This document shows, in pieces, positions 1,215-45,259 of a DNA stretch of 50,221 bases. Under the pieces are notes generated by a model. That model was not told the DNA's origin. It did not search any database and saw nothing but the letters and a program-made list of their open reading frames with translations. The translations under genes were made by a program, and so were the position numbers. Source of the DNA: Glaciecola sp. HTCC2999 (lineage in GTDB: Bacteria > Pseudomonadota > Gammaproteobacteria > Enterobacterales > Alteromonadaceae); the NCBI GenBank assembly GCA_949498985.1, contig CATECQ010000025.1:1-50221 (forward strand). Reading direction: 5' to 3'. Each line of letters begins with the position of its first letter. Position 1 is the stretch's first letter.

Positions 1215-1222
1215 GATTTGTC

Positions 1223-3902: not shown

Positions 3903-3918
3903 GAATTATTCCTTAGCT

Positions 3919-3960: not shown

Positions 3961-3983
3961 ATACCAACAAGTGTAAAACTATT

Positions 3984-5021: not shown

Positions 5022-5060
5022 TGGATTACCTTTGTTTGTCAATTTAATTATATTTTGATG

Positions 5061-5080
5061 GATGGTGATAACACACCATC
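5061..5080 (-). other. Hairpin between the porin and pstS
   Basis: GATGGTG (5061-5067) and CACCATC (5074-5080) form a 7-bp stem with a 6-nt loop in the short porin-pstS gap. No T run follows on the minus strand (it continues CATCAAAATATAATT), so this is a weak terminator at best. mRNA stabilisation or cleavage at the gene boundary is more plausible. Confidence 0.35.
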
Positions 5081-5103
5081 TCATCGGTTAATAAAATTCG
5101 TTA

Positions 5104-6177: not shown

Positions 6178-6219
6178 CGACTTATTTACCTTGAATTGAA
6201 TAATAATTACAGTCTGCAC

Positions 6220-6253
6220 ATAGTAGATTACAAATATTACAGAAATATTACAG
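6220..6253 (-). promoter_or_regulatory. PhoB box and -10 of the porin-pst operon
   Basis: Reading the minus strand, CTGTAATATTTCTGTAAT (6253-6236) consists of two identical 7-bp halves at 11-bp pitch and closely matches the E. coli Pho box (CTGTCAT, AT-rich 4-mer, CTGTCAT). Exactly 10 bp downstream is TACTAT (6225-6220), a good -10, and no -35 hexamer is present. This is the architecture of a PhoB-activated sigma70 promoter. The predicted start site lies about 36 nt before the porin ATG. Confidence 0.85.
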
Positions 6254-6313
6254 TCCAAGAAATCAGTACTTTTCTAGCATGTAGCTATTTTACATATTTG
6301 TTGCGACACAAAT

Positions 6314-6342
6314 ATTACAGTTAAATTAAATTTATATTACAG
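6314..6342 (-). promoter_or_regulatory. Upstream tandem PhoB half-sites
   Basis: Two further CTGTAAT units (minus strand, 6342-6336 and 6320-6314) lie 22 bp apart, with a degenerate ATTTAAT at the intermediate 11-bp position. They overlap the stop codon of the preceding pstS-like gene. This may be an auxiliary PhoB array about 65 bp above the main box, but AT-rich sequence could give such half-sites by chance. Confidence 0.5.
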
Positions 6343-7359
6343 TTGTTTTTTTTGCTTTTTGACAGTTTTATTACTCTCTATATGTGGTGGAAATAAGCTC
6401 TTTAACTGCTGTTTTTGTAGCCCATATGAGATAGGAAAATATCCAGCTTGCTCCACAACTTGTTGCCCTTGCTCAGATAATATATAGCGTAAAAATTGAG
6501 CGACTCCAGGTGCTAATGTTTTATTGGGGGCCTGATTGACTAATAGATAAAGTTGGCGGGTTAAAGGATATTCTCCTGATTGAACAGTCTGGGCACTCAC
6601 CACCACAGGCTTACCTTTATTTGCTACAGATAATATTTTAACCCCAGAAAAAGCTGAACCGACTGAAGCATACCCAATGGCCCCTACACGATTAGCGACC
6701 GTTTGAATAATCGACGATGAGCTAGGTAACTGCTGAACAGTATGTAAATAGTCGCCGTCACACAATGCTTTTTGTTTAAAATAGCTATACGTACCAGAAG
6801 CCGAATTTCGACCATATAGGCGAACCGGAAACTCAGGGAATGTTGCAAAGTTTGCTAACTGATATTGTGTATTATTTAACAATTCATGCCAATACATTAT
6901 TGGTTGATCAAATTGGCAATATCGAGTTGCACTAAACAGTCGGTCAAGTTGATCTAAGCTTAAACTTTCTAAAGGATTAGTCTCTTGAACAAATACACCA
7001 ATTGCATCAATCGCGATAGTAATCAATGTAGGTTCATACCCAAAGCGGTTAACAAATGATTTGCGTTCTGATGGTTTTAGCGGTCTAGACATTGGGCCCA
7101 ATGAAGCCGTACCTGCCGTTATAGCAATCGGAGCAGCAGAAGAACCGGTTGTTTGTATTTGAATTTTAGCTTGTGGATGTAAACGATTAAATTCAATCGC
7201 CCATGCCGTCATAACAGATGATAAAGTCTCTGAACCTATTGACGTCATATTGCCAACAACACTCGGAGATATTAACGTATTAGCATGCACCGGAGTAAAG
7301 CAAAATACGGTCAATAATAAATTTTGAAATAAAATCTTAATGCTGTGGAATATTTTCAT
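6337..7359 (-). CDS. Second PstS-family phosphate-binding protein, encoded with phoBR
   Basis: A 340-aa periplasmic substrate-binding protein of the PBP-like/PstS superfamily. A signal peptide (about residues 1-26, ending PVHA) is followed by VGNMTSIGSETLSSVMTAWA and TGSSAAPIAITAG, matching the first PstS anion loop, and later by LYGRNSASGTYSYFKQKALC, the second. It differs strongly from the pstS product encoded 2 kb away, so it is a distant paralogue, not a recent copy. Its start lies inside the 3' end of phoR (23-nt overlap), making phoB-phoR-pstS-like one translationally coupled unit. Possible roles are a second phosphate receptor or a periplasmic sensor partner for PhoR; the sequence does not decide. 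Confidence 0.85.
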   Translation of the reverse strand: MKIFHSIKILFQNLLLTVFCFTPVHANTLISPSVVGNMTSIGSETLSSVMTAWAIEFNRLHPQAKIQIQTTGSSAAPIAITAGTASLGPMSRPLKPSERKSFVNRFGYEPTLITIAIDAIGVFVQETNPLESLSLDQLDRLFSATRYCQFDQPIMYWHELLNNTQYQLANFATFPEFPVRLYGRNSASGTYSYFKQKALCDGDYLHTVQQLPSSSSIIQTVANRVGAIGYASVGSAFSGVKILSVANKGKPVVVSAQTVQSGEYPLTRQLYLLVNQAPNKTLAPGVAQFLRYILSEQGQQVVEQAGYFPISYGLQKQQLKSLFPPHIESNKTVKKQKKQL

Positions 7360-8674
7360 TATCTTTATAGGGACTATCCGATGGAATCAAATCACTACTT
7401 AAGGTAAACGAAAATTCAGCACCTTGTCCAACCTTACTTTTCACTTCTAAAAACGAATTATGATGATTTAAGACATGTTTAACAATCGACAAACCTAACC
7501 CTGAGCCACCAGTATCTCGAGATCTCGCTTTATCCACTCGATAAAATCGCTCTGTTAGACGTAGTAAATGCTTTTCATCAATACCATCTCCATTATCAAC
7601 TACTTTAAATTGTGCATCCTCACCAGACATTGACCAATATACATCAATGTGACCTGCTTCAGGTGTATAACGAATAGCATTGAATATTAAATTAGAACAT
7701 GCAGAACGAAGTTCACTTTCTACGCCATATACATTTAAACCTGTTTCAATATGAAATTGAATCACATGATGTTTATCTGTATTGAGCTGCTCCGCTTCCA
7801 TCTTGATCTGCTTAAACATATTAGTCATATCGACAATATTTTCATAGATACGCTCTGAACTCGATTCAATACGTGATAATACTAATAAATCTTCAATCAG
7901 GTTTTGCATCCGCCTAGTTTGTGTACTCATTTCATAAATTGCTTTATGTGCAAGCGGGTCGTCATTTAAACTTGTCATGGGTAACATTTCTAGATAACCA
8001 TTAATCACCGTCAAGGGCGTGCGCATTTCATGTGAAACATTAGCCACAAAATCGCGACGCATATCTTCGAGCTGAGAAACTCGTGTGATATCGCGTGATA
8101 TTAGTAATAAATTATCATCCCCGTAAGGCATAATCCGATATTCATTTGTTTTTCTAGAGTTCGCAGGCGATGGCACCTCAATTGGATAGGTGAAATCTCC
8201 GGTTTGGAAATACTCAACAAATTTAGGGTGCCTTAAAAGATTATCAATCCGCATACCCAAATCATCAGGCCACTTTATACCCAGTTCAAAACGGGCTAAT
8301 CGGTTACACCATAATATCGTGGCATCATTATCTATAATTACTACCGAGTCAGGAAGTGCCTCAGCACCTTTGCGAAAGCGCTTAACTAATTCACCTAACT
8401 CTTTACGCTTGCTTCGCTGACGCCTTTGTAGTTGATAGATCCCTTCGTAAATATATTCCCACGTACCATGAACTTTTGGAGGAGAAAGTTTTTTACTTTG
8501 CCAAATCCATTGATTTAATTTATACAACTGGTACAAATTAAATACCAACATGATTAATGTTGAAAGGGCTGCCCCAAACATATAATTATCCAACAACCCT
8601 CCTAATACCAATACTAGTATTGTCAGAATGATTAGCTGAGATATATTTTTTGACCATGAAAATGGGTAGTACAT
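7337..8674 (-). CDS. phoR: PhoR, phosphate-regulon sensor histidine kinase
   Basis: Membrane histidine kinase that phosphorylates PhoB when phosphate is scarce. Its 445 aa show two N-terminal membrane helices (about residues 11-29 and 33-52) with almost no periplasmic loop, as in E. coli PhoR. A basic linker is followed by a PAS domain (about 103-195: LPDSVVIIDNDATILWCN), a HisKA domain with phospho-acceptor His215 in ANVSHEMRTPL, the N-box NLIFNAIRYTPE, and the G1/G2 boxes VDNGDGI and GGSGLGLSIV. The lack of a real sensor loop fits signalling through PstSCAB-PhoU, encoded next door. It follows phoB by 24 nt and overlaps the pstS-like gene. Confidence 0.95.
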   Translation of the reverse strand: MYYPFSWSKNISQLIILTILVLVLGGLLDNYMFGAALSTLIMLVFNLYQLYKLNQWIWQSKKLSPPKVHGTWEYIYEGIYQLQRRQRSKRKELGELVKRFRKGAEALPDSVVIIDNDATILWCNRLARFELGIKWPDDLGMRIDNLLRHPKFVEYFQTGDFTYPIEVPSPANSRKTNEYRIMPYGDDNLLLISRDITRVSQLEDMRRDFVANVSHEMRTPLTVINGYLEMLPMTSLNDDPLAHKAIYEMSTQTRRMQNLIEDLLVLSRIESSSERIYENIVDMTNMFKQIKMEAEQLNTDKHHVIQFHIETGLNVYGVESELRSACSNLIFNAIRYTPEAGHIDVYWSMSGEDAQFKVVDNGDGIDEKHLLRLTERFYRVDKARSRDTGGSGLGLSIVKHVLNHHNSFLEVKSKVGQGAEFSFTLSSDLIPSDSPYKDNENIPQH

Positions 8675-8698
8675 ATAATGAATAAACCTTGTTGCTAT

Positions 8699-9385
8699 CT
8701 ATTTTACTGAAAAACGATATCCCGAGCCGCGCACGGTTTGGATCATTTTATCATGTCCATGCAAATCGATTGCTTTTCGTAACCGTCTAATATGCACATC
8801 AACAGTTCTATCTTCTACATACACATTGGTCCCCCACACATTATCGAGTAACTGTTCTCGTGAATAAACACGCTCAGCATGGGTCATAAAAAAGTGTAAT
8901 AATTTAAATTCAGTCGGTCCCATCTCGACACTGTCACCGTTGGCCGAAACCCGATGAGAAATTGGGTCGAGTACTAAACCCGAAAAGCTAATGGGTTCCT
9001 CTTTAGCCGTAGGTGTTACACGGCGCATCACCGCTTTTATTCGAGCAACTAATTCTTTTGGAGAAAACGGTTTGGTAATGTAATCATCCGCACCTGAGTC
9101 TAACCCTCTGATTTTATCATCTTCTTCTCCACGCGCAGTCAAAATGATCACGGGTATATCTCGAGTAAATTCATGTTCTTTGAATTTACGCGCTAACTGC
9201 ACACCACTACCTCCGGGTAACATCCAATCTAAGAGGATTAAATCAGGGTATGGTTCGACCATTTTCTCCAGCGCAATATCGAAATCTTCTGCTTCTGTCA
9301 CAACGAATCCAGATTGTTCCAGCACAATTTTTAGCATTTCACGGATGGGTGCTTCATCTTCAACCAACATGATAGTGCGTGCCAT
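8699..9385 (-). CDS. phoB: PhoB, phosphate-regulon response regulator
   Basis: OmpR-type transcription factor, 228 aa, the usual length. The receiver domain carries the acidic pair Asp10/Glu11, phospho-acceptor Asp53 in [13 protein letters not shown], and Lys105 in YITKPFSP. The C-terminal winged helix includes [31 protein letters not shown] and the recognition segment [15 protein letters not shown]. It is first in the phoB-phoR-pstS-like operon, with ribosome site GTAGGAG. A PhoB box with a correctly placed -10 sits upstream (9429-9462), consistent with autoactivation. It is the candidate activator of the other boxes noted in this window. Confidence 0.97.
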
Positions 9386-9428: not shown

Positions 9429-9462
9429 ATTATGGCGCGCTTGTATGACACTTTTATGAAGA
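9429..9462 (-). promoter_or_regulatory. PhoB box and -10 of phoB (autoregulation)
   Basis: On the minus strand TCTTCAT-AAAA-GTGTCAT (9462-9445) gives two half-sites at 11-bp pitch: the second matches CTGTCAT at 6 of 7 positions and the first retains the TCAT core. Ten bp downstream is CATAAT (9434-9429), a near-consensus -10, and there is no -35. The predicted start is about 37 nt before the phoB ATG. Spacing is identical to the porin promoter. Confidence 0.75.
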
Positions 9463-33814: not shown

Positions 33815-34216
33815 ATGAGTGGCGAAACCAACTTAAATAAACTGCTAGCGAGCATGTCTCCAGCATGTGATAAGGTTATGTATGGCTTTGCCACTCTACC
33901 GTCGAAAGACTTTAAGAATCTCTCATTTATGCCTAAATGTATGTTTCAAGAAGCAGAAGGTATGACGGTGATTGCGACTATCGATGAATTTGTGGATAAC
34001 AACATCGAATGCATGGGACCGTTTGCGTGTATTACTCTTACGATACACTCATCGCTTGATGCGGTAGGTTTGACAGCAGCGTTTGCTACCGCACTAGGTG
34101 ATGCTAAGATCAGTGCTAATGTGGTAGCTGCTTATTATCATGATCATATTTTTGTTGCATGGGAAGATAGAGATAATGCGATTACAACATTAAACGCATT
34201 ATCTACCCATCATTAA
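33815..34216 (+). CDS. ACT-domain protein (DUF2241/COG3602-like)
   Basis: A 133-aa cytoplasmic protein. The N-terminal half (LNKLLASMSPACDKVMYGFATLP, then MFQEAEGMTVIATIDEFVDN) and the second half (CITLTIHSSLDAVGLTAAFATALGDAKISANVVAAYYHDHIFV) form the paired ACT fold I associate with COG3602. Members are predicted small-molecule (amino-acid) binding regulators with no established partner. An AAAGGA ribosome site precedes it. Its TAA shares the TTAA at 34213-34216 with the stop of the convergent TPR gene, so no room is left for a terminator between them. Confidence 0.85.
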   Translation: MSGETNLNKLLASMSPACDKVMYGFATLPSKDFKNLSFMPKCMFQEAEGMTVIATIDEFVDNNIECMGPFACITLTIHSSLDAVGLTAAFATALGDAKISANVVAAYYHDHIFVAWEDRDNAITTLNALSTHH

Positions 34217-35529
34217 TTCGAAGCTAAGATAGTCTCATTTTGCTCAAATGAGCGTTTTTCTCCTCGCACAAAATTCTGCCATTGTTCTGCCATCTTCTTG
34301 CTGGATTTAAATGATTCAGCTTTAGCCAATTCTTCTAGTGCTTTGGCAAACTCATGCTTATTATAATATGCCATACCTAGCACCAAGTGAATGGTACCTG
34401 GATTACGCAGACTGCCTTTTTCAATTGCTAGCTGAGCGCTTTCAATAGCCGAATCAAATTCATCAATGTTTAATAATAGCTGGCTAAGTTGAGCGTAAAT
34501 TTGGCCGTCATCCGACAAATCTGCAGCCGCTTGCATCACAGGCACAGCTTTGTCGATTTCTTTGGCTAATTGATAACATTGGCCTAAGAATTTCAAGTTC
34601 CGTAAATTCTCTTCTAAAATACCGTCATCCATTGCTTGCTGCATCATATCTGCACATTTGTAAGGGGCTTTATGGTAGTAATAAAGTTGCGCCATATTAA
34701 AAATGTCAGATGCTTTTTCTAAGTAGCCTTGCTGCTTGGCAGCTTCCATGATTGCAATTTGATGCTTTTCCATACCAAGCTCACCATACATGCCACCAAG
34801 TTGAATCCAGTACTTAGGTTCATTAAACAGCTTGACCATTTTTACTAAAATATCTTTGACTTTTTCAGGCTGTTTTAACTCGTAATAAATTGCACGTTGC
34901 AGGATCAACCAACCTTCATCGGGGATCATGCCAGCCGCTTCTTTATTTTCAATCGCTTGAGTGACAAACGTGCCAGCTTGCTCATATTGCTTATCTTGAT
35001 AGTAAGCTTGGGCTTTAATAAATAAGTTCTTAGGGGGAGTGTCACCTACATTTAAGTCTTCCCAACGCTCCAAAAACTCAATAGAATCTTTATAATTACC
35101 TTGCATTAAAGATAACTGAGCAAGCGTAAATAATGTACTTTGCTCGAAGGATTCTGGTATCCCTGGTTCCTGGATAACTTTCTTAAATGAAGCGAGAGCC
35201 TCATCGGTTTGCTCAAGATTATAATAAATAAAGCCATAAAAGTTATAAAGCATGGCTATCTCATAACTATTCATCGAGCTTTTTTTACCTTCAATTTCTT
35301 TTAATGCAGCGAATGCTTCTGGTGTTTGATCATTGTCAGCATAGGATTGCGCACGAGCAAGTTGTTCATACACCTTTCCACGCAACGTGGGTACACGACG
35401 GGTCTTTTTCTGACTGGCTTTTTGCGTATCAGCGCTTTGGTTAGCTGAAGCAGAGAACGATAATGTGGGTAAACTAATTATTGCACCAACACAAAATGCT
35501 AACACTATATTTTGAAAAGAACGGGTCAT
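34213..35529 (-). CDS. TPR protein of the TonB2 energy-transduction operon
   Basis: A 438-aa exported protein placed last in the DUF3450-ttpC-exbB2-exbD2-tonB2 operon, the position held by a TPR gene in Vibrio TonB2 loci. The start at 35529 follows TAAGGAAT 10 nt after tonB2 and yields a signal peptide (about 1-27, ending SFSA). A basic linker (KASQKKTRRVPTLRGKVYEQLARAQ) leads to at least eight TPR-like helix pairs, for example QTDEALASFKKVIQEP, KQYEQAGTFVTQAIEN and HEFAKALEELAKAE. A periplasmic scaffold that contacts TonB2 or the receptor is inferred from context. The 23-codon upstream extension overlaps tonB2 and is unlikely. Confidence 0.85.
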   Translation of the reverse strand: MTRSFQNIVLAFCVGAIISLPTLSFSASANQSADTQKASQKKTRRVPTLRGKVYEQLARAQSYADNDQTPEAFAALKEIEGKKSSMNSYEIAMLYNFYGFIYYNLEQTDEALASFKKVIQEPGIPESFEQSTLFTLAQLSLMQGNYKDSIEFLERWEDLNVGDTPPKNLFIKAQAYYQDKQYEQAGTFVTQAIENKEAAGMIPDEGWLILQRAIYYELKQPEKVKDILVKMVKLFNEPKYWIQLGGMYGELGMEKHQIAIMEAAKQQGYLEKASDIFNMAQLYYYHKAPYKCADMMQQAMDDGILEENLRNLKFLGQCYQLAKEIDKAVPVMQAAADLSDDGQIYAQLSQLLLNIDEFDSAIESAQLAIEKGSLRNPGTIHLVLGMAYYNKHEFAKALEELAKAESFKSSKKMAEQWQNFVRGEKRSFEQNETILASN

Positions 35530-35539
35530 AAAATATTCC

Positions 35540-36151
35540 TTAACCATCAATTTTAAACGTAATACGGTTTTGCACACCTGAGACTTCAGTGGCTTCACCG
35601 TTTACTACTCGTGGCTTATACTTAAACTTTTTAGCAGCATCAAGTGCTGCTTGATCAAATATACCTTCGGGTTGAGCTTCAACAACAAATGGCTCTTTAA
35701 CTGCGCCAATGGTATTTACGGTAAACTCAACAATTACAAATCCTTCAATACCACGCTGTAATGCACGGCGGGGGTATACGGGTGCTACTTTAACAATCGG
35801 CAAATACTCACCATCACCTGACTCTAAGCCTAAACCACCATCAAGTGACACATCCGTAGCAACATCAGCGGCAAAATCCATACCTGAGGCTTCTGCATCG
35901 GGTGAAGGCGAATCCATTTGTGGTGTTTCCATCTGAGGAGGTGGCTCTTCTGGTTGAGGTGGTTTCTTTGGTTTGCGATCTTTTTTCTCAACCGTTTCTT
36001 CTTTTTTGACTCGAACAAAATCCATGACGCTACCCTTGGGTGGATCGGTTAGCGCACTGCCTCCACTTTTAATTAGCGACTGCATCAAAAAGAAAAGACC
36101 GAGGGTTATCGCAGCCGAAACTAAAATCGCAATGATAAGACGTGAAATCAT
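35540..36151 (-). CDS. tonB2: TonB2-type energy transducer
   Basis: Inner-membrane-anchored periplasmic protein of 203 aa that carries proton-motive energy to outer-membrane receptors. An N-terminal signal anchor (about 6-27) is followed by a Lys/Pro/Glu-rich stretch (KKEETVEKKDRKPKKPPQPEEPPPQ), shorter than in classic TonB. The C-terminal domain begins LPIVKVAPVYPRRALQRGIEGFVIVEFTV and has the conserved YP motif. Size and operon position match the TonB2 class of Vibrio rather than TonB1. It starts 4 nt after exbD2. Confidence 0.93.
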   Translation of the reverse strand: MISRLIIAILVSAAITLGLFFLMQSLIKSGGSALTDPPKGSVMDFVRVKKEETVEKKDRKPKKPPQPEEPPPQMETPQMDSPSPDAEASGMDFAADVATDVSLDGGLGLESGDGEYLPIVKVAPVYPRRALQRGIEGFVIVEFTVNTIGAVKEPFVVEAQPEGIFDQAALDAAKKFKYKPRVVNGEATEVSGVQNRITFKIDG

Positions 36152-36155
36152 AAGG

Positions 36156-36563
36156 TTATGGCTCTTGAGCGGCTATCGAAACATCAAATACACCAGCAGA
36201 ACGCGAGGCGTCCATGACTTTAATTAACACCTCAGTCGTCGCTTTCTTATCCGCTTGAATAACAACACTTCCTTGAGGGTTTTCTGCGTATAAACGTTCG
36301 ATGTTGGCTTGTACTGCACGCTCATCGATACGACGTTTGTTAATCCAAATTTCGCCTTTATCACTTATGGCAATCAAGATATTAGCGCGATCTTTTTTAA
36401 CAGCTGTCGCTGCGTCTGGACGGTTCACATCGATACCAGCTTCTTTCACAAACGAAGCAGTTACAATGAAAAATATCAACATAATAAATACGACATCGAG
36501 CATGGGTGTCATGTCGATTGCTGCTTCTTCTTCGTCTATTAAATTTTGAAAATGTTGTTTCAT
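36156..36563 (-). CDS. exbD2: ExbD2, proton-channel component
   Basis: A 135-aa protein with one N-terminal membrane helix holding the proton-relay aspartate in IDMTPMLDVVFIMLIFFIVTASF, followed by a periplasmic domain (KEGAI-type segment here KEAGIDVNRPDAATAV and the C-terminal VIQADKKATTEVLIKVMDASRSAGV). Together with ExbB2 it forms the motor that energises TonB2. It starts 30 nt after exbB2 and ends 4 nt before tonB2. Confidence 0.93.
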   Translation of the reverse strand: MKQHFQNLIDEEEAAIDMTPMLDVVFIMLIFFIVTASFVKEAGIDVNRPDAATAVKKDRANILIAISDKGEIWINKRRIDERAVQANIERLYAENPQGSVVIQADKKATTEVLIKVMDASRSAGVFDVSIAAQEP

Positions 36564-36593
36564 ACTTTTACCTATTATGCCTATAACACCGTA

Positions 36594-37130
36594 TTACGCT
36601 GATGTGATAGGACGATCAATTTCGATGGCATCTTCTAAATGCATTCGTTCCGTTTTTACTGTTCGAGTTAACCATGTTGAGGCAAACACCCCAGACAACG
36701 CACCCACCATACCAGCCATTGTTGGAATCGTTGCTTTAGAAACACCTGAAGCCATAGAACGAGCATTGCCCGAGCCTGATATTGCCATGACATCAAATAC
36801 TTCAATCATCCCTGTCACAGTCCCCATCAAACCTAACAAAGGACACAATGCAACAAGTGCCTGAATAATCGGAATACTGCCATTCAAATTTAGAATTAGG
36901 CGCGATATCACTTTTTGGCGAACTTGTTCTGCATTCCAAGAAGATTTATCTTCTCTTACCTGCCACTGCTCCACAGCATCGCGTTTATGATTTTTGTGCC
37001 ATACAAACACATATAAAACACGTTCTAGAATGAGCATCCACATCACAAAAATCAGTAAACCAATGACCAAGAGTACTTGGCCACCTGTCTCTGTAAAATC
37101 GCGAATGGCTTCAAAAAACTCGGTCATCAT
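36594..37130 (-). CDS. exbB2: ExbB2, proton-channel component
   Basis: A 178-aa three-helix MotA/TolQ/ExbB protein. The first helix (about 17-37, VLLVIGLLIFVMWMLILERVLYVF) and the conserved PLLGLMGTVTGMIEVF plus SKATIPTMAGMVGALSGVFAS segments are intact. It lacks the long periplasmic domain of its neighbour TtpC and is the short, motor-forming paralogue. The ATG directly abuts the ttpC stop (TAAATGATG); the second ATG at 37127 is an equally possible start. Confidence 0.92.
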   Translation of the reverse strand: MMTEFFEAIRDFTETGGQVLLVIGLLIFVMWMLILERVLYVFVWHKNHKRDAVEQWQVREDKSSWNAEQVRQKVISRLILNLNGSIPIIQALVALCPLLGLMGTVTGMIEVFDVMAISGSGNARSMASGVSKATIPTMAGMVGALSGVFASTWLTRTVKTERMHLEDAIEIDRPITSA

Positions 37131-38495
37131 TTAGCCTCGTTCTGAACGCTCTGCAATGACACCTGAAGCTTGCTCTTGCAGAATATAGACAATGTTCTTA
37201 CTGCGTGTATTGAGTATCGCATACAATAATGTCATCGGAATCGCGACTACTAGACCTAATACAGTTGTCACAAGCGCAGTAGAAATACCACCTGCCATCA
37301 ATTTAGGGTCACCGGTACCGAATAATGTTATGGCCTGGAAAGTATTAATCATACCGGTCACTGTCCCTAGTAGGCCCATTAATGGAGCCACTACGGAGAT
37401 AATTTTAATGATGGTTAAGTTACGCCCTAGCTTAGGTACTTCACCTAAAATAGCTTCTGTGAGGTGTAATTCTAATGACTCAGTATCAGCACTAGGATAA
37501 TCATCTTTCACTTTCATCACACGTCCGAGTGGATTATTACTACTAAACGTCTCTGATTTTAGCTGTCTATCGACTTTAGCTTTGATGATAGTTAACGAAA
37601 TCAAACGTTCTAGCGCTAACAATAAACCAATCGCACCGACGATTAAGATGATGTAACCCACTAAGCCACCTTGTTCAACACGTTCTTGTAGATTGGGGGC
37701 TTGGACTAATAGGCCGAGAATCGAGCCACCTGTTGGATCAATACCAAATTGCACAGACTCACCATTTGATGCTTCAAGTGCAGCCACTGATGCACCAAAA
37801 CGGTCTGCAGGTTGGCGAATCAATTCTGAAACTGTTCCAGTTACTCCGTTATATTCAAGGTATTTTCCATCTGCAACTAACGCAAAAGGACCAACACGTA
37901 ACACTTCTTTATTAACTTTATTACCGTCAGCTTCAACAACTGATGTGTTAAATCGAGTGACTTTGCCCGCTTCAGTCATTTCACGTTGGATTTCAAACCA
38001 GACCCGTTCAATTTCATCAATCGAGGCCAATTTAGATGATTTACCCATTGATTGAGCCATCTCATCTAAAAATTCAGAGCGGCCAGGAATCTGTGCTGAT
38101 ATCACAGAATTGTAAAATTTATTTTTGGTATCACCAGACACTTGTTGCAATACACCAAATAGCTCTTTTAATGAACCAAGGCGAGTATTTAATGCGTCAT
38201 TTAAATCCGCTAATTTAAATTCATTTTCTTCAAATTGAGTTTCTAAACGCTCTGAAAGAGCCAAGGCTTGATTTCTGTCTTGCGTAGTATCACGAAGAAT
38301 TTGGTCTTGCTCTGCGCGTTTTTGGATAAACGCTTGCTCACGTTGAGTATTTTGTGCTTTTTGAGCAAACTGTCCTTGTTCAAGCTGTTGCAATAATGCA
38401 TCTAAATCTAATGCACGTTCATTTTCTGCCATTGCAGCCACACTGAATAATGAGGCACACACGATAGCAATGATAGGGGTAAATAATCGTTTCAT
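37131..38495 (-). CDS. ttpC: TtpC-type MotA/TolQ/ExbB proton-channel protein with periplasmic coiled coil
   Basis: A 454-aa relative of ExbB found in TonB2 systems and, in Vibrio, needed for TonB2 function. A signal peptide (about 1-23, ending SVAAMA) is followed by a long charged coiled coil (about 30-110, with LEQGQFAQKAQNTQREQAF and TTQDRNQALALSERLE) and a periplasmic domain. The three-helix TolQ/ExbB module starts near residue 275 (GLVGYIILIVGAIGLLLALERL, then LMGLLGTVTGMINTFQAITLFG and STALVTTVLGLVVAIPMTLLYA). It begins 10 nt after the DUF3450 stop. The symbol is given by analogy with Vibrio ttpC. Confidence 0.9.
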   Translation of the reverse strand: MKRLFTPIIAIVCASLFSVAAMAENERALDLDALLQQLEQGQFAQKAQNTQREQAFIQKRAEQDQILRDTTQDRNQALALSERLETQFEENEFKLADLNDALNTRLGSLKELFGVLQQVSGDTKNKFYNSVISAQIPGRSEFLDEMAQSMGKSSKLASIDEIERVWFEIQREMTEAGKVTRFNTSVVEADGNKVNKEVLRVGPFALVADGKYLEYNGVTGTVSELIRQPADRFGASVAALEASNGESVQFGIDPTGGSILGLLVQAPNLQERVEQGGLVGYIILIVGAIGLLLALERLISLTIIKAKVDRQLKSETFSSNNPLGRVMKVKDDYPSADTESLELHLTEAILGEVPKLGRNLTIIKIISVVAPLMGLLGTVTGMINTFQAITLFGTGDPKLMAGGISTALVTTVLGLVVAIPMTLLYAILNTRSKNIVYILQEQASGVIAERSERG

Positions 38496-38505
38496 TGTTA
38501 TGACC

Positions 38506-39273
38506 TTAGTCTGTAATCGCTACAGGGAGCATTAATAAATCAGGGGCTAGCTGTTTCTTCGCCATACGTAACCCTTTAGTAATCTGGGTACGGTAACTTG
38601 AGTCTAATGCTTCCCACTGGCGCGTTTGTTTATTCCAGACACCTTGACTTGACGCGTCGCGAGTTTGGTAAATAAGTGCGGTACGACCTAGACGTAAAAA
38701 TTCCACATCACGCTCTTGACCATCAATCGTATGTAAACCTTGATAAGCTTCTAACGTACGGCCGTAATCCATTTCAACTTGGAATGCTTCCATGACCCGA
38801 CGAAACTTTTCAGAAGGTGCTACATCAGCACGATCCATCATAGTACGCAAACCAGCCACACGCTGCGCACGCTCTTCAGGCAAGAAAGGCACATCAAGTT
38901 CAATAAACTGGGCTAAACCATCAATCATATTCATCATTAAAGGAGTTATTTGACGTTCAATAACACTCACTTCATCAATCGCAGCATTTAAGTCTGCCAT
39001 TTCTTGATTCTGATTATTAATTTGTTTTTGTAACTGACTGTTGTAGACATTTAAGCCTGCAATTTCTTTATTTAGCGCTTTAAATTGCTGTAACTTGCTA
39101 TCAATCTGATCGGCAATATTATCAATCTTAGCTTGAGAATCGGCTGCTGATTGGTTAATTTTGGCCGTTTTATCAATGACTTTTTTGACCGTGCTATCTT
39201 CTTGAGCAATTAAGCTAGTGCTTACAGTTAATGTACTCAATAAGACGAGTATGAGTGAGCTTACGCGTTTCAT
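38506..39273 (-). CDS. DUF3450 protein, first gene of the TonB2 operon
   Basis: A 255-aa exported protein with signal peptide (about 1-23, ending SLIA) and a strong coiled coil (about 40-105, QSAADSQAKIDNIADQIDSKLQQFKALNKEIAGLNVYNSQLQKQINN). The C-terminal domain contains FLPEERAQRVAGLRTMMDRADVAPSEKFRRVMEAFQVEMDYGRTLEAYQG. This matches DUF3450, regularly encoded ahead of ttpC in gammaproteobacterial TonB2 operons. Its molecular role is unknown; a periplasmic partner of TtpC through coiled-coil contacts is my inference. A PhoB-box-like promoter lies upstream (39334-39367). Confidence 0.87.
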   Translation of the reverse strand: MKRVSSLILVLLSTLTVSTSLIAQEDSTVKKVIDKTAKINQSAADSQAKIDNIADQIDSKLQQFKALNKEIAGLNVYNSQLQKQINNQNQEMADLNAAIDEVSVIERQITPLMMNMIDGLAQFIELDVPFLPEERAQRVAGLRTMMDRADVAPSEKFRRVMEAFQVEMDYGRTLEAYQGLHTIDGQERDVEFLRLGRTALIYQTRDASSQGVWNKQTRQWEALDSSYRTQITKGLRMAKKQLAPDLLMLPVAITD

Positions 39274-39333
39274 ATTATGAAGACCTATTTAGATGTTGGT
39301 TGCTATGAAGTGGCAACTATGAAATCAGCGGAG

Positions 39334-39367
39334 AGTATAAATAAACAATGTGACAGTTTTATTAAAA
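39334..39367 (-). promoter_or_regulatory. Candidate PhoB-dependent promoter of the DUF3450-TonB2 operon
   Basis: On the minus strand TTTTAAT-AAAA-CTGTCAC (39367-39350) has a perfect downstream half-site (CTGTCAY) and a weak upstream half (4 of 7). TATACT (39339-39334) follows after exactly 10 bp, and no -35 is present. This is the same geometry as at phoB and the porin. Only one half-site is strong, so it is a candidate and not a certainty. Confidence 0.5.
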
Positions 39368-39413
39368 TGAACTATTCAAGTGTAGTTTGGTAAGTTAAAG
39401 TTTTTTTCAGCCG

Positions 39414-39446
39414 AAAATAAAAAAAGGAAGCACATGGCTTCCTTTT
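39414..39446 (-). terminator. Rho-independent terminator of the lipoprotein-TonB receptor unit
   Basis: AAAAGGAAGC (39422-39431) and GCTTCCTTTT (39437-39446) form a perfect 10-bp stem with a 5-nt loop. On the minus strand the stem runs into a T run (TTTTATTTTC). It ends the receptor transcript and separates it from the TonB2 operon. Confidence 0.9.
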
Positions 39447-39467
39447 AAACGATGATGCTGTGTTCAA

Positions 39468-42146
39468 TTAAAAATCGTATTTAAATGAGACACTTACACC
39501 ACGACCTTTGGTTTCTGAACGAAGTAGGACGTTTTCAAACTCGAGTTCTTTTTGTTCATCTAAAATGTTGTTGAGCTTAAATGTAACCGTCGTATTGAAA
39601 TCTGGATAATATTTATAAACTGCATCTAAAGAATGAAACGGCAGTTCCATATTATCATCAAATCCATCAATACCAGGGATTAATATACGCTCGCCAAAGA
39701 CGTTATATACTAATGAAGCACTGTGTTCACCATTGTCTGAGTCAAAACCCAATTGCAAGTTAACCACGTACTCAGAGTGACCTGTTAAACGTCGAGTCGT
39801 ATTGGTTATCGCTGCAGATACACCAGTCTGGTCTACAATATTTTGACGGTCTAGCTCGATTTCTGAATCAGAAAGCGTCACGTTACCTGACAAGAACATG
39901 TTATCCCATATACCTTCACCAATAACTTCAAGACCTTGTAAAAAATCGATCTCAACACCCGCAAGTGTCCCAGTTTCAGCATTTGCAATACGAATTAACG
40001 GAGGTCCATCCTGTGCAGGTGATTGCACCGACTCAATTGGATTCGTCATATCTTTATAAAACAAACCAATTGACAGGTTATTACCTGCTTCACGGTACCA
40101 TTCCCAACGTAAATCATAATTAATGATAGATGTTGTAAGCAATCCAGGTGTACCTGCTACTGGAAACTCAGTTAATGGGTCGATATATGTCGCAGAAGAT
40201 ACTTCACGTAAATCTGGACGCACAACTGTCTCACCAATACTGGCACGAAACTGCATTGAATCATCTTTGATGTAAGTCACAGCAAGTGCAGGATAAAAAT
40301 CATCCTCTTGGAACGCAAGCTGTGCGCGGTCATCTTCATCAGATAAATCAATTTGATTTGTACGAGGATCCATAGGTACGACCGCTTGACGGAAATCTTC
40401 AAAGCGAGCTCCACCGCTAAAACGCCATTTACCTTGATAAAATAAATCAGCCTCAAAATAGAACGCATCTACTTTTTGTGCCGCTGAATAATCATCACCC
40501 GCAATGGTAGTATCTCGAACTAAGAATTGACTCGATGAGTATGCTGCATTATCCAAAGCACTATTACTCAAAATAGTAGCAAAAGAATTACCAGATAACG
40601 CACTATTATCAGAAAACGCACGTGTATTGATTGCAATACGACGGTTATCTGCAACACGAGCTTTAGTTAAGAAATCACCACCGATTTTAAATTCCATTTC
40701 CCAATTTTCAGTAGTCAATGGAATGGTTGTATTCCAACCATAATTTTCAACTCGGTCATGCAATGTTTGGAAATCGTACTGAGCTGCACCGGTCGAGTTT
40801 GATAGGGTACTTTCGTTAACCACATCAAAAATACCGTCTTCATTCACATCAGACAGAATAAAACGTGCTCCGAAACTACCTGGTGCATTTCGAACTGAAC
40901 GGCCCAAAGAATATTTCCAATCAAAACCGGCAAAATTCAACTCAGGGAACGTATGCATACCTTTAATTTGATTGGTATACATTTTACGCTCTTCGTAATC
41001 AACGCTAATGTCGCGAACACGAAGGCCGTCGTTTTGATTCAAGTTTTCTGTATTACCGAATTTTTCTTTGACTTCGTCAGAGGTATCACTTAACGCGATT
41101 AAAGAATAATCAATTCTGTGATTACGTTGGTAATCAATACCCATGTTCAAAAGAGTCGACCATTTAGTCGTATATTCTGTCACCAGCACATCATCAAAAA
41201 AACGTACAATTTCAATAGTGTCACCGACGCGGTTAGCTTGCTCTAACTCATATTCTTCAGAGACATTCACACCACGGCTATAACCAGAAGCTAATAAAAA
41301 TCCAGTACGGATATCATCGGACAAATCAAAATTGTTACCTACAGAAACGTTAAATCCATAATTAGGATCGACGGATGCATCAACCGGATCATAATCGCGT
41401 TTCATGCTTTTTAAGACATTAACGGCTTCACCCTGTGTAAATGCATTATCTGCTTGTCTTGGAATCAGTGGGTTACTGCCCAAGAAATCTTTAGTCGCCC
41501 AGCTGTTTACCAAAGTTGCCGGTGCGGCAAGATTACCATCGTCTTGACCAAGAAAATTATCGTCACGACCATAATCAAGTGCATCACCCGAGTTTTCAGA
41601 GTTTGTGCCAATACTGCCTGATACATTAAAAATAAAATCAGATGGAATGGACTTTAAGCGAATATCAACGTTACCACCACCAAATGATGCTGGCATAGAC
41701 GGAGAATACGATTTTTGCACCGATAAACTTTCAATAATATCTGATGGAAATAAATCCAATGGAATTACATTACGTGTTGGATCTGGTGAAGGAACATTGG
41801 CACCATTTAATAGCGTACTTGAATATCGCTCACCCAAACCACGTACATATATGAATTTACCGTCAACAAGAGTCAGTCCCGTTACACGCCTTAATGCTGA
41901 GGCTGCATCACTATCACCCGTTCGAGAGATCTGTTCTGCACCTAAGATATCAGCGACAAAGGCTTGATTCTTACGCTCTTCGAGAACTGCTGTTGCAGTC
42001 CCTTTTAATCGAGTACCCGTTGCAACAACTTCTTCAATAACTTCTTCATCTGATTCTTGTGATAACGCAACTGGGGCAATTAACAAGGAAGATAATATTG
42101 CTAAAGTAAGTGTTTTTAACGGAAACTGAGTATTAGGTTGTTTCAT
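39468..42146 (-). CDS. Large TonB-dependent outer-membrane receptor
   Basis: An 892-aa TonB-dependent receptor. The start at 42146 follows TTGAGG at good spacing; the longer frame begins with TTG at 42158. After a signal peptide (about residues 9-30) comes an acidic TonB-box region (EEVIEEVVATGTRL). The plug follows, with FVADILGAEQISRTGDSDAASALRRVTGLTLVDGKFIYVRGLGERYSSTLLNGANVPSPDP and SFGGGNVDIRLKSIP, then a barrel ending VSVSFKYDF. The plug resembles the group annotated only as TonB-dependent receptor in Alteromonadales, and I cannot name the ligand. It is second in a unit with the repeat lipoprotein upstream, and the TonB2 machine lies just downstream. Confidence 0.93.
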   Translation of the reverse strand: MKQPNTQFPLKTLTLAILSSLLIAPVALSQESDEEVIEEVVATGTRLKGTATAVLEERKNQAFVADILGAEQISRTGDSDAASALRRVTGLTLVDGKFIYVRGLGERYSSTLLNGANVPSPDPTRNVIPLDLFPSDIIESLSVQKSYSPSMPASFGGGNVDIRLKSIPSDFIFNVSGSIGTNSENSGDALDYGRDDNFLGQDDGNLAAPATLVNSWATKDFLGSNPLIPRQADNAFTQGEAVNVLKSMKRDYDPVDASVDPNYGFNVSVGNNFDLSDDIRTGFLLASGYSRGVNVSEEYELEQANRVGDTIEIVRFFDDVLVTEYTTKWSTLLNMGIDYQRNHRIDYSLIALSDTSDEVKEKFGNTENLNQNDGLRVRDISVDYEERKMYTNQIKGMHTFPELNFAGFDWKYSLGRSVRNAPGSFGARFILSDVNEDGIFDVVNESTLSNSTGAAQYDFQTLHDRVENYGWNTTIPLTTENWEMEFKIGGDFLTKARVADNRRIAINTRAFSDNSALSGNSFATILSNSALDNAAYSSSQFLVRDTTIAGDDYSAAQKVDAFYFEADLFYQGKWRFSGGARFEDFRQAVVPMDPRTNQIDLSDEDDRAQLAFQEDDFYPALAVTYIKDDSMQFRASIGETVVRPDLREVSSATYIDPLTEFPVAGTPGLLTTSIINYDLRWEWYREAGNNLSIGLFYKDMTNPIESVQSPAQDGPPLIRIANAETGTLAGVEIDFLQGLEVIGEGIWDNMFLSGNVTLSDSEIELDRQNIVDQTGVSAAITNTTRRLTGHSEYVVNLQLGFDSDNGEHSASLVYNVFGERILIPGIDGFDDNMELPFHSLDAVYKYYPDFNTTVTFKLNNILDEQKELEFENVLLRSETKGRGVSVSFKYDF

Positions 42147-42201
42147 TTTAAACCTCAATTCACTGCTTTAATAACTGTTGTATATTGGAGTATTCGAAAC
42201 A

Positions 42202-42229
42202 CAAGTGCGCTACCTAGGTAACGCACTTG
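42202..42229. repeat. Near-perfect 28-bp palindrome between lipoprotein and receptor genes
   Basis: CAAGTGCG-C-TACCTAGGTA-A-CGCACTTG reads almost identically on both strands (one mismatch pair, which becomes a U-G wobble in the minus-strand RNA). As RNA it folds into a stem of about 12 bp, without a following T run. It may be an mRNA-processing or stabilising hairpin, or an operator. It lies in the 110-bp gap of an otherwise co-directional pair. Confidence 0.6.
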
Positions 42230-42256
42230 AATATCAAACATTGTTGACTTACTTAA

Positions 42257-45085
42257 TTAAAGACCTACGGTCCAACCAGAAGTCCAGTTATTATCAGCGT
42301 CTTTAACAGCGCCAATGAAATCAGTAGTGGTGAAGAATGTATCTACAGCGTTAACGTCTGTAGCAGTCACACCAGATGCAATAGTGAAGATACCATCGAC
42401 AACAGAAGCTTGGTCCGCTGCAACTGCATTGTTACGTGCTGCATCGTTCCACCATGCTTCTACACCTGCAGTGTCAAGTCCTGGGGCATCGACACCTTTG
42501 AAGTTTTCTGCGCAAGCTACAACTGATGTTTGAATGTTGATATCGCCATCAGTTAAGTTACCTTGAACTGTGTCATCGTTATCAAACTCTAAACATTCGC
42601 CAGCTGCACCGGTAATAACAAAGTTATAAAGCTGTGCAGAAGTTTGGTCACGTAATAATACACCTTCAGAATCTGTGTCAGCTGTATCAAATGCGTTACC
42701 AATGATTGTCATGTTTGCAACTGTTGGGTTTGAGAATTCAAAGCCTTCGCCTGAACCCGCATTACCACCATCACCGTCGCCTTCGATACCACGGTTAGCA
42801 TCAGAACCATCATCAGCATGCTTAACTAATACGAACTGCATCTTACCGTCATAACCGTTATCCCAGTCAACTGAATCATCTTGGATTCCTGTTAAAACAA
42901 CATACTTCGCATTAACAGCACCACCAAAGAATTCAACACCATCATCAGCATTTTTGTGTACTTGGACATACTCAACAGTCGTTCCAGAACCTACACCACC
43001 GAATGTAATACCATTTAACTCATTATCAGGTGCGATTTCGAAACCACCGTGCATAACACGGACATAACGTAATGTACCTGAGTTATCAGTATCATCAGTA
43101 CCACCAAACACTGCTCCTTCTTGCACACCTTCAACCTGAAGCGCACATGCGGTACCGTCTGTTGGACACTTAGTAGAACGACCGTTACCTAAAATAACCA
43201 TACCGCCCCATTGACCAGGTGCACCATTTGCTAATGTACTTGGGTCTTGTGCATGTTGACGAGACGTGAATGTAATTGGATTAGTCGCTGTGCCGTTAGC
43301 ATCGATTTGTGAACCACGGCTAACCACTAAGTAATCGTTACCAGATGAACCGTATACAATAACTCCAGGCTCTACTGTTAAAGTAGCAGAATCCGCATTA
43401 TCACCACCAACAAATACTGCACCAGAAAGCGCATACATGTTGCCTTGGGTAAGCGTTAGGTCAGAAGTAATACGACCTGATACTTGACATGTATTTGTTT
43501 CACCATCAACTGAAGCAATCGTAGTGGTACCTGCAGGACAGCCAGATTGTGAAGCAGCAACCGCAACTTGACCACCGCCAAATCCAAATGCCCAACCTTG
43601 ACGCCAATCTGTCGCACCAACTGCACCTACAAAACTGTTTTCTGCGAAGAAACCATCTAATGTAGAAGCATTACCACCAGCTGTTAATAGTGCAGACTCA
43701 GAAGTTAAAGAACCATCGTTGTTAATACCTAACGCGTTACGTGCATCAGCATCTGTATAATCAACAATCTGGTTGCCAGTTTGACCTTCAAACCAAGCCG
43801 CTACTTCTTCAGTTGTCTTTCCAGGTGCGTCAACGCCTTTAACAGGTTCACTGCACACTAACGCAGAGTAAGTGATTGTTAAATCGCCATCATCTAAGTT
43901 ACCTTGAACTGTCGCATCACTATCGAATTCTAAACACTCACCCATTTGCTCAGGACCAGTAACGAGTAAGTTCATAATTTTCGCTGCGGTTTGGTCACGT
44001 AATAATAAACCTTCAGAATCAGCATCTTCAGTATCAAATGTGTTACCAATAACGGTCATGTTAGCAACCATAGGTGCTGAGAATTGGAACGCACCGCCAT
44101 CGTCGTTTGCGTTACCACCGTCACCGTCACCTTCAATACCACGGTTAGCATCAGAACCGTCACGAGCATGTTCAACATAAACATACTGTAATTTACCGTT
44201 ATAACCGTTATCCCAATCAACTGAATCGTCCTGGTTGCCGGTTAACACTAAGTACTTAGCATTGACAGAACCACCAAAGAATTCAACACCGTCATCTGAA
44301 TTAGCATGAACCTGAACATACTCAACAGTGGTTTCTGAACCTACGCCACCAAAAGTAATACCGTTAAGCTCATTATCAGGTGCTATTTCGAAACCCGCAT
44401 ACTTAACGACGGTGTATCTTAAGATACCAGAGTTATCAGATGAATCAGTACCGCCGAAAACAGAACCTTCAACAGCACCTTCGACTTGCAGCGCACATGC
44501 TGTTCCGTCAGTTGGACACTTAGTTGATGGCGCGTTACCTAAGATAACTAAACCACCCCATTGACCAGGACCAACCTCGGCACCGATTACATCATTATAA
44601 GATGTCATAATTACAGGATCAGTTGCAGAACCCGTTGATTCAATTTTTGAACCACGGCTTACTACTAAATAATCAGCGCCTGAACGACCAAAAATAATGG
44701 TACCAGGTTCAATTTCCAGTGTGACTGAGTTTTCATTGTCATCACCAACAATTACAGGACCTTCAAGTGCCCATACAGTGTCGTTCGTTAATGTTACAGT
44801 TTCTGCAGCATCACCTGCAGATGAAATGCGACCTGATAAAGAACGCACTTCTACAGAAGAACCTAATGCAGTAGATACTTGAGAGCTCAAGAATGGAGAC
44901 GCTACACCAGGTGCACTATCGTCAACAACAGGAGTAGTAGGAGTACTTGGCGCATTGTTATTAGTCGTGGTAGTGGTGTTAGTATTAGAAATATCACCTT
45001 CAGAGATATTGATGTCACCACCACAACCGGCTAGAACTAATGCAGATGCAATAGCAGATGCTTGAAATATATGTTTTATTTTCAT
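42257..45085 (-). CDS. Secreted or surface lipoprotein with two tandem 450-residue repeats
   Basis: A 942-aa lipoprotein: the signal peptide ends LVLAGC, so Cys21 is lipidated. A Thr/Asn/Pro-rich linker (about 33-60) leads to two homologous units of about 400 aa at a fixed offset of 450. For example STKCPTDGTACALQVEG occurs at 187-203 and again at 637-653, and FEIAPDNELNGITFGGVGS at 232-250 and 682-700. Each unit has four cysteines or more, VEPG and VSRGS turns, and an Asp/Gly-rich loop NRGIEGDGDGGNA suggestive of calcium binding. The repeated short beta motifs suggest a right-handed beta helix. No enzyme motif is recognised. AGGGATTAAAT precedes the ATG. It is co-transcribed with the TonB receptor downstream. 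A role as a ligand-capturing partner is inference. Confidence 0.85.
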   Translation of the reverse strand: MKIKHIFQASAIASALVLAGCGGDINISEGDISNTNTTTTTNNNAPSTPTTPVVDDSAPGVASPFLSSQVSTALGSSVEVRSLSGRISSAGDAAETVTLTNDTVWALEGPVIVGDDNENSVTLEIEPGTIIFGRSGADYLVVSRGSKIESTGSATDPVIMTSYNDVIGAEVGPGQWGGLVILGNAPSTKCPTDGTACALQVEGAVEGSVFGGTDSSDNSGILRYTVVKYAGFEIAPDNELNGITFGGVGSETTVEYVQVHANSDDGVEFFGGSVNAKYLVLTGNQDDSVDWDNGYNGKLQYVYVEHARDGSDANRGIEGDGDGGNANDDGGAFQFSAPMVANMTVIGNTFDTEDADSEGLLLRDQTAAKIMNLLVTGPEQMGECLEFDSDATVQGNLDDGDLTITYSALVCSEPVKGVDAPGKTTEEVAAWFEGQTGNQIVDYTDADARNALGINNDGSLTSESALLTAGGNASTLDGFFAENSFVGAVGATDWRQGWAFGFGGGQVAVAASQSGCPAGTTTIASVDGETNTCQVSGRITSDLTLTQGNMYALSGAVFVGGDNADSATLTVEPGVIVYGSSGNDYLVVSRGSQIDANGTATNPITFTSRQHAQDPSTLANGAPGQWGGMVILGNGRSTKCPTDGTACALQVEGVQEGAVFGGTDDTDNSGTLRYVRVMHGGFEIAPDNELNGITFGGVGSGTTVEYVQVHKNADDGVEFFGGAVNAKYVVLTGIQDDSVDWDNGYDGKMQFVLVKHADDGSDANRGIEGDGDGGNAGSGEGFEFSNPTVANMTIIGNAFDTADTDSEGVLLRDQTSAQLYNFVITGAAGECLEFDNDDTVQGNLTDGDINIQTSVVACAENFKGVDAPGLDTAGVEAWWNDAARNNAVAADQASVVDGIFTIASGVTATDVNAVDTFFTTTDFIGAVKDADNNWTSGWTVGL
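42260..43480 (-). repeat. Second internal repeat of the lipoprotein gene
   Basis: Codons about 536-942. It aligns with the first repeat (codons about 85-500) without large gaps through most of its length. At DNA level third positions have diverged widely, so the duplication is old and under selection for protein sequence. Confidence 0.8.
43586..44833 (-). repeat. First internal repeat of the lipoprotein gene
   Basis: Codons about 85-500, ending DWRQGWAFGFGG, which matches NWTSGWTVGL at the end of the second repeat. A linker of about 35 residues with CPAGTTTIASVDGETNTC joins the two. Confidence 0.8.
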
Positions 45086-45127
45086 ATTTAATCCCTATGA
45101 AATATCTTGAGTAAAAAAACTTACCGA

Positions 45128-45161
45128 ATACTAACGAGGGAAGATGACAGAATTGTTACAT
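45128..45161 (-). promoter_or_regulatory. Candidate PhoB-dependent promoter of the lipoprotein-receptor unit
   Basis: On the minus strand ATGTAAC-AATT-CTGTCAT (45161-45144) has one perfect Pho half-site and one weak one. TAGTAT (45133-45128) follows after 10 bp, there is no -35, and the predicted start is about 36 nt before the ATG. The CTGTCAT also forms an inverted repeat with CAATTGTCAT (plus strand 45166-45175), so a different dimeric regulator is possible. Confidence 0.5.
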
Positions 45162-45259
45162 CAAGCAATTGTCATAAAAGTTTCATTTTAGTCGATTGGC
45201 GGGAATAACTTGAAATGCACATACAGGTGGATTTTACATATGAGTAGAACAAAAGTTAC

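Follow-up and report, generated by a model that had tools for sequence, protein, structure and literature searches.

Conserved Pho boxes precede a lipoprotein-receptor pair and a TonB2-type operon in Glaciecola sp. HTCC2999

Introduction

Which signal calls up a TonB2-type energiser, and for which cargo, when its operon stands beside the genes of a lipoprotein and a TonB-dependent receptor? TonB systems have mostly been studied for iron. The question is raised by a 50,221-nucleotide stretch of contig CATECQ010000025.1 (assembly GCA_949498985.1, Glaciecola sp. HTCC2999), the whole of which is called the window here. On its minus strand, from 45085 to 34213, a lipoprotein gene and a TonB-dependent receptor gene are followed by six genes in the order DUF3450-ttpC-exbB-exbD-tonB-TPR (the energiser operon). 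Candidate Pho boxes precede both units. PhoB-bound boxes stand in for the -35 element of a promoter. The two units probably form a PhoB-controlled outer-membrane module for phosphorus acquisition.

The window is one stretch of a draft genome, which totals 2.07 Mb over 62 contigs and is 83.5% complete. It was compared with 78 lipoprotein loci from a single scan of named genomes, which include Alteromonas, Glaciecola, Paraglaciecola, Colwellia, Thalassotalea, Idiomarina, Shewanella and others. The closest locus in this set is that of Glaciecola sp. HTCC2999 (L034), with a lipoprotein identity of 95%.

Results

Pho boxes in the window

The initial annotation described the lipoprotein-receptor unit and the six-gene operon as adjacent and co-directional. 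It placed a CTGTCA(T/C) half-site 10 bp before a -10 hexamer at each unit and reported the same geometry at phoB and at a porin gene. The gene coordinates and the sequence agree with this description. At the lipoprotein promoter, CTGTCAT ends at 45144 and is followed after 10 bp by TAGTAT (45133-45128). At the energiser promoter, CTGTCAC ends at 39350 and is followed after 10 bp by TATACT (39339-39334). The same spacing separates the phoB box (9462-9445) from CATAAT (9434-9429) and a porin box (6253-6236) from TACTAT (6225-6220). Where a -35 element would be expected, there are two direct repeats of 7 bp with an offset of 11 bp, 10 bp from the -10 hexamer. The first half-sites are degenerate (ATGTAAC, TTTTAAT), like those in the phoB boxes of relatives.

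Scoring with a Pho-box matrix, as the annotation proposed, places the energiser box first in the window and the two lipoprotein boxes fourth and sixth. The 18-bp matrix was trained on phoB promoters from 28 related genomes and applied to all 18-mers of the window on both strands. All six top-scoring sites are upstream of the DUF3450, phoB, porin or lipoprotein genes. In order, they are DUF3450 (27.2), phoB (21.4), porin (15.7), lipoprotein inverted (15.2), porin (12.6) and lipoprotein direct (11.9). At the porin gene, the boxes at 6359-6376 and 6314-6331 outscore the box with the 10-bp geometry (6236-6253). In 20 block-shuffled windows, maxima range from 9.2 to 18.7 and each window contains 0-4 matches with a score of at least 11.9. 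The energiser and phoB boxes are beyond chance by themselves because their scores exceed all shuffled maxima. The energiser box, TTTTAATAAAACTGTCAC, is identical, letter for letter, to the phoB box of a relative (L091).

The lipoprotein promoter contains two boxes that face opposite ways, and the inverted one is kept in relatives. Here the annotation was right about the direct half-site and overlooked the inverted box (45169-45186).

Conservation of the promoters in relatives

The pattern TGTCA[TC]-N10-TANNNT was searched up to 250 bp upstream of each gene. It is present at 77/78 lipoprotein genes and 38/48 DUF3450 genes, at 0/77 receptor genes, 0/25 other TonB2-type operons and 7/847 other open reading frames (ORFs). 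When the spacing is set to 6-9 or 11-14 bp, the lipoprotein genes give 0-6 matches and the DUF3450 genes 0-2; across the range of 6-14, spacings other than 10 give 0-8 matches in every gene set. The phoB promoters contain the strict hexamer pattern in 1/43 cases and the relaxed [AC]A...T pattern in 35/43. Most phoB genes miss the strict hexamer because their -10 element is AATAAT or similar.

Matrix scores of at least 10 are found at 49/78 lipoprotein, 45/48 DUF3450 and 30/42 phoB promoters. In the control sets such scores are absent (receptor 0/77, ttpC 0/48, exbB 0/47, exbD 0/47, tonB 0/46, TPR 0/44). Among other ORFs they occur in 18/740, and the two highest belong to Porin_O_P genes. The inverted box appears in the logo of relatives as TATGAAA.TTTTGTGACA. 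Information in the box columns is 1.3 bits for the lipoprotein (38 rows) and 1.5 bits for DUF3450 (27 rows), values that are inflated by the score limit, since only promoters above it (and less than 75% identical) were used. The 40 bp upstream of the box contain 0.47 bits (lipoprotein) and 0.19 bits (DUF3450). The lipoprotein value is elevated because the conserved inverted box falls there. Conservation of the half-sites, on which the annotation had staked its claim, is found in position, spacing and sequence (77/78 and 38/48).

These counts bear on the possibility that the half-sites arose by chance or belong to another regulator, and that the operons are ordinary TonB genes with no phosphate control. 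The scores of both lipoprotein boxes, which fall inside the range of the shuffled windows, are what such a reading would predict. It does not predict the exact 10-bp spacing in 77/78 loci and in none of the 25 other TonB2-type operons, or the match between the energiser box and a phoB box. We regard it as highly improbable, and chance half-sites are rejected on the conservation together with the box-free operons.

Linkage to phoB

A PhoB protein (at least 55% identity) is encoded in the examined flank of 40/78 loci. In 39/78 loci, phoB is 2.4-3.5 kb upstream of the lipoprotein gene on the same strand, and phoB and the energiser are both present in 32/78. In the window, the phoB cluster is split off by approximately 33 kb and both boxes are retained. 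In two loci (L017 and L066), the neighbours include ppk, ppx, a PHO4-type transporter, PhoU_div and a phosphate porin, and this porin gene has a high-scoring box.

Two TonB2-type operons

The draft genome contains two TonB genes and two TtpC genes. Only the window copy of TonB is in a box-bearing operon. The box is missing (20/20) from the second TonB2-type operon, on contig C10, and from its counterparts in 19 other genomes carrying both operon types (L147-L166); five further TonB2-type operons from other genomes (L142-L146) lack it too. Across all 25 of these non-Pho operons, matrix scores are below 10 (25/25) and the 10-bp geometry is absent (0/25). A general housekeeping motor was considered for the window operon, and this is weakened by the box-free second operons (20/20, plus the five from other genomes).

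Pho-type TtpC sequences were defined by at least 60% identity; the next match has 48%. Pho-type and other TtpC sequences form separate clades with 100/100 support, although the labels were assigned by identity beforehand and the tree serves to confirm the split. Among 295 genomes of the order, 25 have a Pho-type TtpC, all 25 of which have the lipoprotein; the lipoprotein is present in 46/295. In the Pho-type operons L117-L130, which include that of the window, the box scores at least 14.2 in 14/14. The TonB2-type motor adjoins the lipoprotein-receptor pair in 48/78 Alteromonadales-type loci.

The second TonB2-type operon has no box; therefore one of the two motors looks dedicated to phosphate stress. 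The annotation had proposed Pho control of the surface system. The conserved boxes, the phoB neighbour in about half of the loci and the box-free second operon (20/20) favour this proposal at the level of sequence, and Pho regulation of both units appears well supported by the comparison.

Lipoprotein and receptor

The N-terminus of the lipoprotein (MKIKHIFQASAIASALVLAGCGG) is a typical lipobox with LAGC at residues 18-21. The receptor gene is directly downstream in 77/78 loci, and the remaining locus is at a contig end. In one locus (L067) the receptor aligned only in part. No Pfam or NCBIfam family matches the lipoprotein at an expectation value (E) of 0.001, and its single Pfam match is chance-like (E 0.019). 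No solved structure is related to the lipoprotein by sequence, and the receptor has no solved relative by sequence that would indicate its substrate.

An AlphaFold model made from 44 sequences contains two strand-rich domains, with a mean predicted local distance difference test (pLDDT) of 87.6 for the entire lipoprotein. The C-terminal domain alone has a mean pLDDT of 92.7 and a predicted template modelling score of 0.93. Foldseek searches of the PDB (E of at most 0.001) give 7 matches for the whole model and 0 for the single domain, with template modelling scores below 0.4 throughout. The best matches are mostly proteins that we take to be parallel beta-helices (pectate/alginate lyases, tailspikes), and the lipoprotein domains are predicted to be beta-helices. 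Seven acidic residues of the domain (D208, D209, E212, D230, D231, D234 and E262) do not vary between the two repeats or among the aligned distant members. In the domain model they map to strands 211-214, 233-236 and 259-263 or next to them, and they may make up a site for a metal or ligand. Pfam, NCBIfam, solved relatives and Foldseek were used to look for an enzyme or ligand-binding fold; none was recognised at these thresholds, and no activity is claimed.

Import of iron or another metal cofactor under phosphate control, for example for metal-dependent phosphatases, is an alternative to a phosphorus cargo. The TonB2 system of Vibrio vulnificus, which has the same gene order, is described as an importer of iron siderophores with a putative Fur box (PMC6957404). 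Weak matches to haem-type models, far under the cut-offs, are seen in the related receptors of two distant stretches (L198 and L199), but the window receptor matches no NCBIfam siderophore or haem model at E 0.001. We judge import of a metal quite unlikely.

The lipoprotein seems to have one to three copies of the repeat domain across genomes, as judged from open-frame lengths and match blocks (G174, G039, G018, G222, G263, G327, G262). Two further gene families occur at these loci. One is a 319-amino-acid (aa) gene 3' of the receptor (L078:15806-16765; family in 7/78 loci), the product of which has SdiA-regulated and Phytase-like beta-propeller matches, all below cut-off. The other is a 2-oxoglutarate-Fe(II) oxygenase-like gene directly upstream of the lipoprotein in L010, L045 and L046 (family in 9/78 loci).

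Distant relatives and the connection to ElpS

The annotation associated the Caulobacter phosphate-starvation lipoprotein ElpS with a TonB receptor. This is correct: ElpS is described as produced under phosphate starvation from a gene beside a TonB receptor gene, with an LAGC lipobox at residues 17-20 (PMC2996285). Shewanella is named among the carriers of ElpS homologues, and cc0170-cc0171 of Caulobacter adjoin gspC-N, in the order cc0170-cc0171-gspC (PMC2996285).

The lipoprotein profile matches 51/398 genomes sampled across the phylum, and 33 of the 51 fall outside the order. Twenty larger stretches were examined from 19 of these 33 genomes, those of another class being probably alphaproteobacteria. 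In 19/20 stretches, the lipoprotein homologue and a related receptor are co-directional neighbours (lipoprotein first in 16, receptor first in 3). The remaining stretch (L200) contains only a receptor fragment, approximately 6.8 kb from the lipoprotein homologue. The type II secretion system (T2SS) genes gspD, gspE and gspF adjoin the pair in 11/20 stretches, downstream and co-directional in 10 and divergent in L209. In L198, the NCBIfam models for GspD, GspE and GspF are matched above their cut-offs and that for GspC below its cut-off. The pair of the window seems to belong with ElpS/Cc0170-Cc0171, judged by profile family, lipobox and synteny.

One gammaproteobacterium of another order (L199) encodes DUF3450 (cut), ttpC, exbB, exbD, tonB, a 387-aa ORF, the receptor and the lipoprotein homologue. 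The promoter of this homologue contains the Pho-like TGTCAT-N10-TAAATT. In the same genome (G433), L199 is one co-directional motor-receptor-homologue cluster, and a second copy of the homologue (L200) has a nearly identical promoter.

T2SS genes were not found beside the pair in the window; gspE matches are on other contigs. T2SS stretches on contigs C12 and C19 of the genome (L217, L218) have best matrix scores of 8.8 and 5.1, neither a good box, and a Pho-controlled T2SS in this genome was rejected. A consensus match with one mismatch on C12 was also rejected, as it is inside a 702-aa ORF beside gspE, presumably gspD. The C12 and C19 stretches closely resemble each other, with the same neighbours, and are possibly two strain versions within one draft genome, not two systems.

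The published work on ElpS suggests another role for the locus. Instead of feeding the receptor, the lipoprotein may activate a phosphatase that is secreted, or display it; the receptor and motor may then aid release or assembly, much as Caulobacter ElpS is released with the help of the T2SS. TonB motors are known for import, and the T2SS clusters of the genome lie elsewhere; the stretches examined there contain no good Pho box. However, overexpression of ElpS is reported to raise alkaline phosphatase in the supernatant, although the authors did not consider ElpS itself a phosphatase, and release of ElpS is reported to depend on the T2SS (PMC2996285). The pair also adjoins gspDEF in 11/20 distant stretches and a TonB2-type motor in 48/78 loci and in L199. 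This role is rather unlikely in our estimation.

The exchange of T2SS and TonB2-type genes beside the same pair invites an outward-use reading of the TonB2 motor. One pair would have been coupled in evolution to a T2SS in the other class and to a phosphate-dedicated TonB2/TtpC motor in the Alteromonadaceae. The motor might then drive display, release or reloading of the lipoprotein, and not only import. This is speculative and we give it little credence; if true, a TonB motor would be working outwards to scavenge phosphorus.

Gene layout

The gene identities follow from sequence matches, and the features are listed in Table 1. Two NCBIfam equivalog cut-offs are missed, for ExbB2 (25.9 of 135.35 bits) and ExbD2 (53.5 of 123.45 bits), and therefore the proteins are called TonB2-like and not Vibrio equivalogs. 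Terminator-like sites are not enriched in the region (6 found, against a mean of 8.2 in shuffles). Elsewhere in the window, 378-9385 encodes an ATP-binding cassette (ABC) ATPase, two permeases, two phosphate-binding-type proteins, a phosphate-selective porin and PhoB. By its position, the ORF that separates phoB from the second of these binding proteins is taken as phoR.

Table 1. Genes, promoter elements and reference sites in the window
Feature	Coordinates	Strand	Details
Porin_O_P upstream Pho boxes	6359-6376, 6314-6331, 6236-6253	-	scores 15.7, 12.6, 8.6
Pho box of phoB, reference site	9445..9462	-	score 21.4; same geometry
TPR protein, TtpD-like by position	34213..35529	-	TPR matches; ATG 35529, ORF from GTG 35598
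TonB2-like protein	35540..36151	-	PF03544
ExbD2-like protein	36156..36563	-	PF02472
ExbB2-like proton channel protein	36594..37130	-	PF01618
TtpC-like MotA/TolQ/ExbB protein, 454 aa	37131..38495	-	PF01618
DUF3450 protein, TtpB-like, first gene of operon	38506..39273	-	PF11932, E 8e-95
-10 hexamer TATACT, energiser promoter	39334..39339	-	10 bp past half-site
Pho box TTTTAATAAAACTGTCAC, energiser operon	39350..39367	-	score 27.2, best in window, exceeds phoB
Terminator-like hairpin, T-rich tail, 3' of receptor gene	39422..39446	-	consensus match only
TonB-dependent receptor	39468..42146	-	PF00593 + PF07715; ATG 42146, ORF from TTG 42158
ElpS-kind lipoprotein	42257..45085	-	942 aa, lipobox LAGC (Cys21), two tandem domains
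-10 hexamer TAGTAT, lipoprotein promoter	45128..45133	-	10 bp past half-site
Direct Pho box ATGTAACAATTCTGTCAT, lipoprotein promoter	45144..45161	-	score 11.9, window rank 6
Inverted Pho box TTGTCATAAAAGTTTCAT, upstream of lipoprotein	45169..45186	+	score 15.2, window rank 4

Discussion

Proposed mechanism

Under phosphate starvation, phosphorylated PhoB would bind the boxes in place of a -35 element and turn on the lipoprotein-receptor unit together with a full TonB2-type motor (TtpB-TtpC-ExbB-ExbD-TonB-TtpD). The lipoprotein would sit in the outer membrane, probably facing the outside, where it would capture a scarce phosphorus-containing ligand and serve the receptor. The receptor would import the ligand, energised by the motor that the same signal induces. 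In this scheme we infer PhoB binding, the surface exposure of the lipoprotein, its physical association with the receptor and the motor, and a cargo that contains phosphorus.

Several observations weigh against this mechanism. A conserved PhoB-like site falls short of proof of PhoB control. The relatives share descent, so the locus counts are not independent. Matrix scores are below 10 at 29/78 lipoprotein and 3/48 DUF3450 promoters, and the lipoprotein case, given the shuffled range, rests on conservation in 77/78 loci. Among the deeper-branching Pho-type operons (L131-L141), 8/11 score below 10, the lowest at -3.2; the 10-bp geometry is kept in 7/11 and missing in 4/11. The energiser was not found in the examined flank of 30/78 loci (7 Idiomarinaceae, 7 Shewanella, 5 Colwellia, 10 other Alteromonadaceae and L069), where the flank of L069 ends with its contig and five other flanks are also short. 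The lipoprotein occurs with no Pho-type TtpC in 21/46 genomes of the order, and therefore the motor is not required everywhere. In Caulobacter, Cc0171 is reported to be constitutive and ElpS production to continue after deletion of Cc0171, both as data not shown there (PMC2996285).

On the preferred reading, this marine family has two TonB2-type motors. One of them apparently serves phosphate starvation alone and is matched with a receptor and a lipoprotein of the ElpS kind. Such a locus could be used to study genetically how common marine bacteria may obtain phosphorus that neither porins nor the Pst transporter can take up, and to examine what ElpS does.

Comparison with known systems

SusCD-type pairs consist of a surface lipoprotein encoded beside its TonB-dependent receptor, and the window resembles them in this placement of the two genes. 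It differs from them in that its lipoprotein has no Pfam domain and is a predicted beta-helix.

A further likeness is to ElpS/Cc0171 of Caulobacter crescentus, an LAGC lipoprotein beside a TonB-dependent receptor with a link to phosphate starvation (PMC2996285). Distant members of the window family adjoin gspDEF, as cc0170-cc0171 adjoin gspC-N. Unlike ElpS/Cc0171, the window has two repeat domains and a TonB2-type motor in place of an adjacent T2SS. It also has Pho boxes before both units, whereas Cc0171 is the receptor reported as constitutive. PhoB of Caulobacter is reported to control several TonB receptors and the T2SS (PMC11208175).

The six-gene operon shares its gene order with the TonB2 and TonB3 systems of V. 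vulnificus: it starts with the DUF3450 gene (ttpB) and ends at the position of ttpD. In V. vulnificus, TtpB2 is a DUF3450 protein, ttpD2 closes its operon and the TonB3 operon has a receptor gene at its start (PMC6957404). The V. vulnificus TonB2 operon is described as induced by iron limitation and has its putative Fur box, whereas the window operon has a Pho box.

PUMA3 of Pseudomonas aeruginosa (phdA, pdtB, exbB2D2, tonB4) is likewise an ExbB-ExbD-TonB set induced by phosphate starvation, and its pho box is reported to be bound by PhoB (PMC4971064). It differs in that it is described as requiring the extracytoplasmic function (ECF) sigma factor VreI, with the pho box upstream of a -35 and a -10 element (PMC4971064). 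In the window, the box itself is 10 bp from the -10 hexamer, and a TtpB/C/D-type motor has a receptor and an ElpS-kind lipoprotein as its partners. PUMA3 is marked by vreA, vreI, vreR, pdtA and pdtB; no sigma-factor or secretion-partner domain is present within 34213-45161.

No Pho-controlled TonB2/TtpC operon in Alteromonadaceae appears among the matches listed in a literature search of titles and abstract openings with partial journal coverage. ElpS-receptor pairs and a PhoB-controlled ExbBD-TonB set (PUMA3) are already known separately. The combination of an ElpS-type pair, Pho control and a TtpB/C/D-type motor appears to be new.

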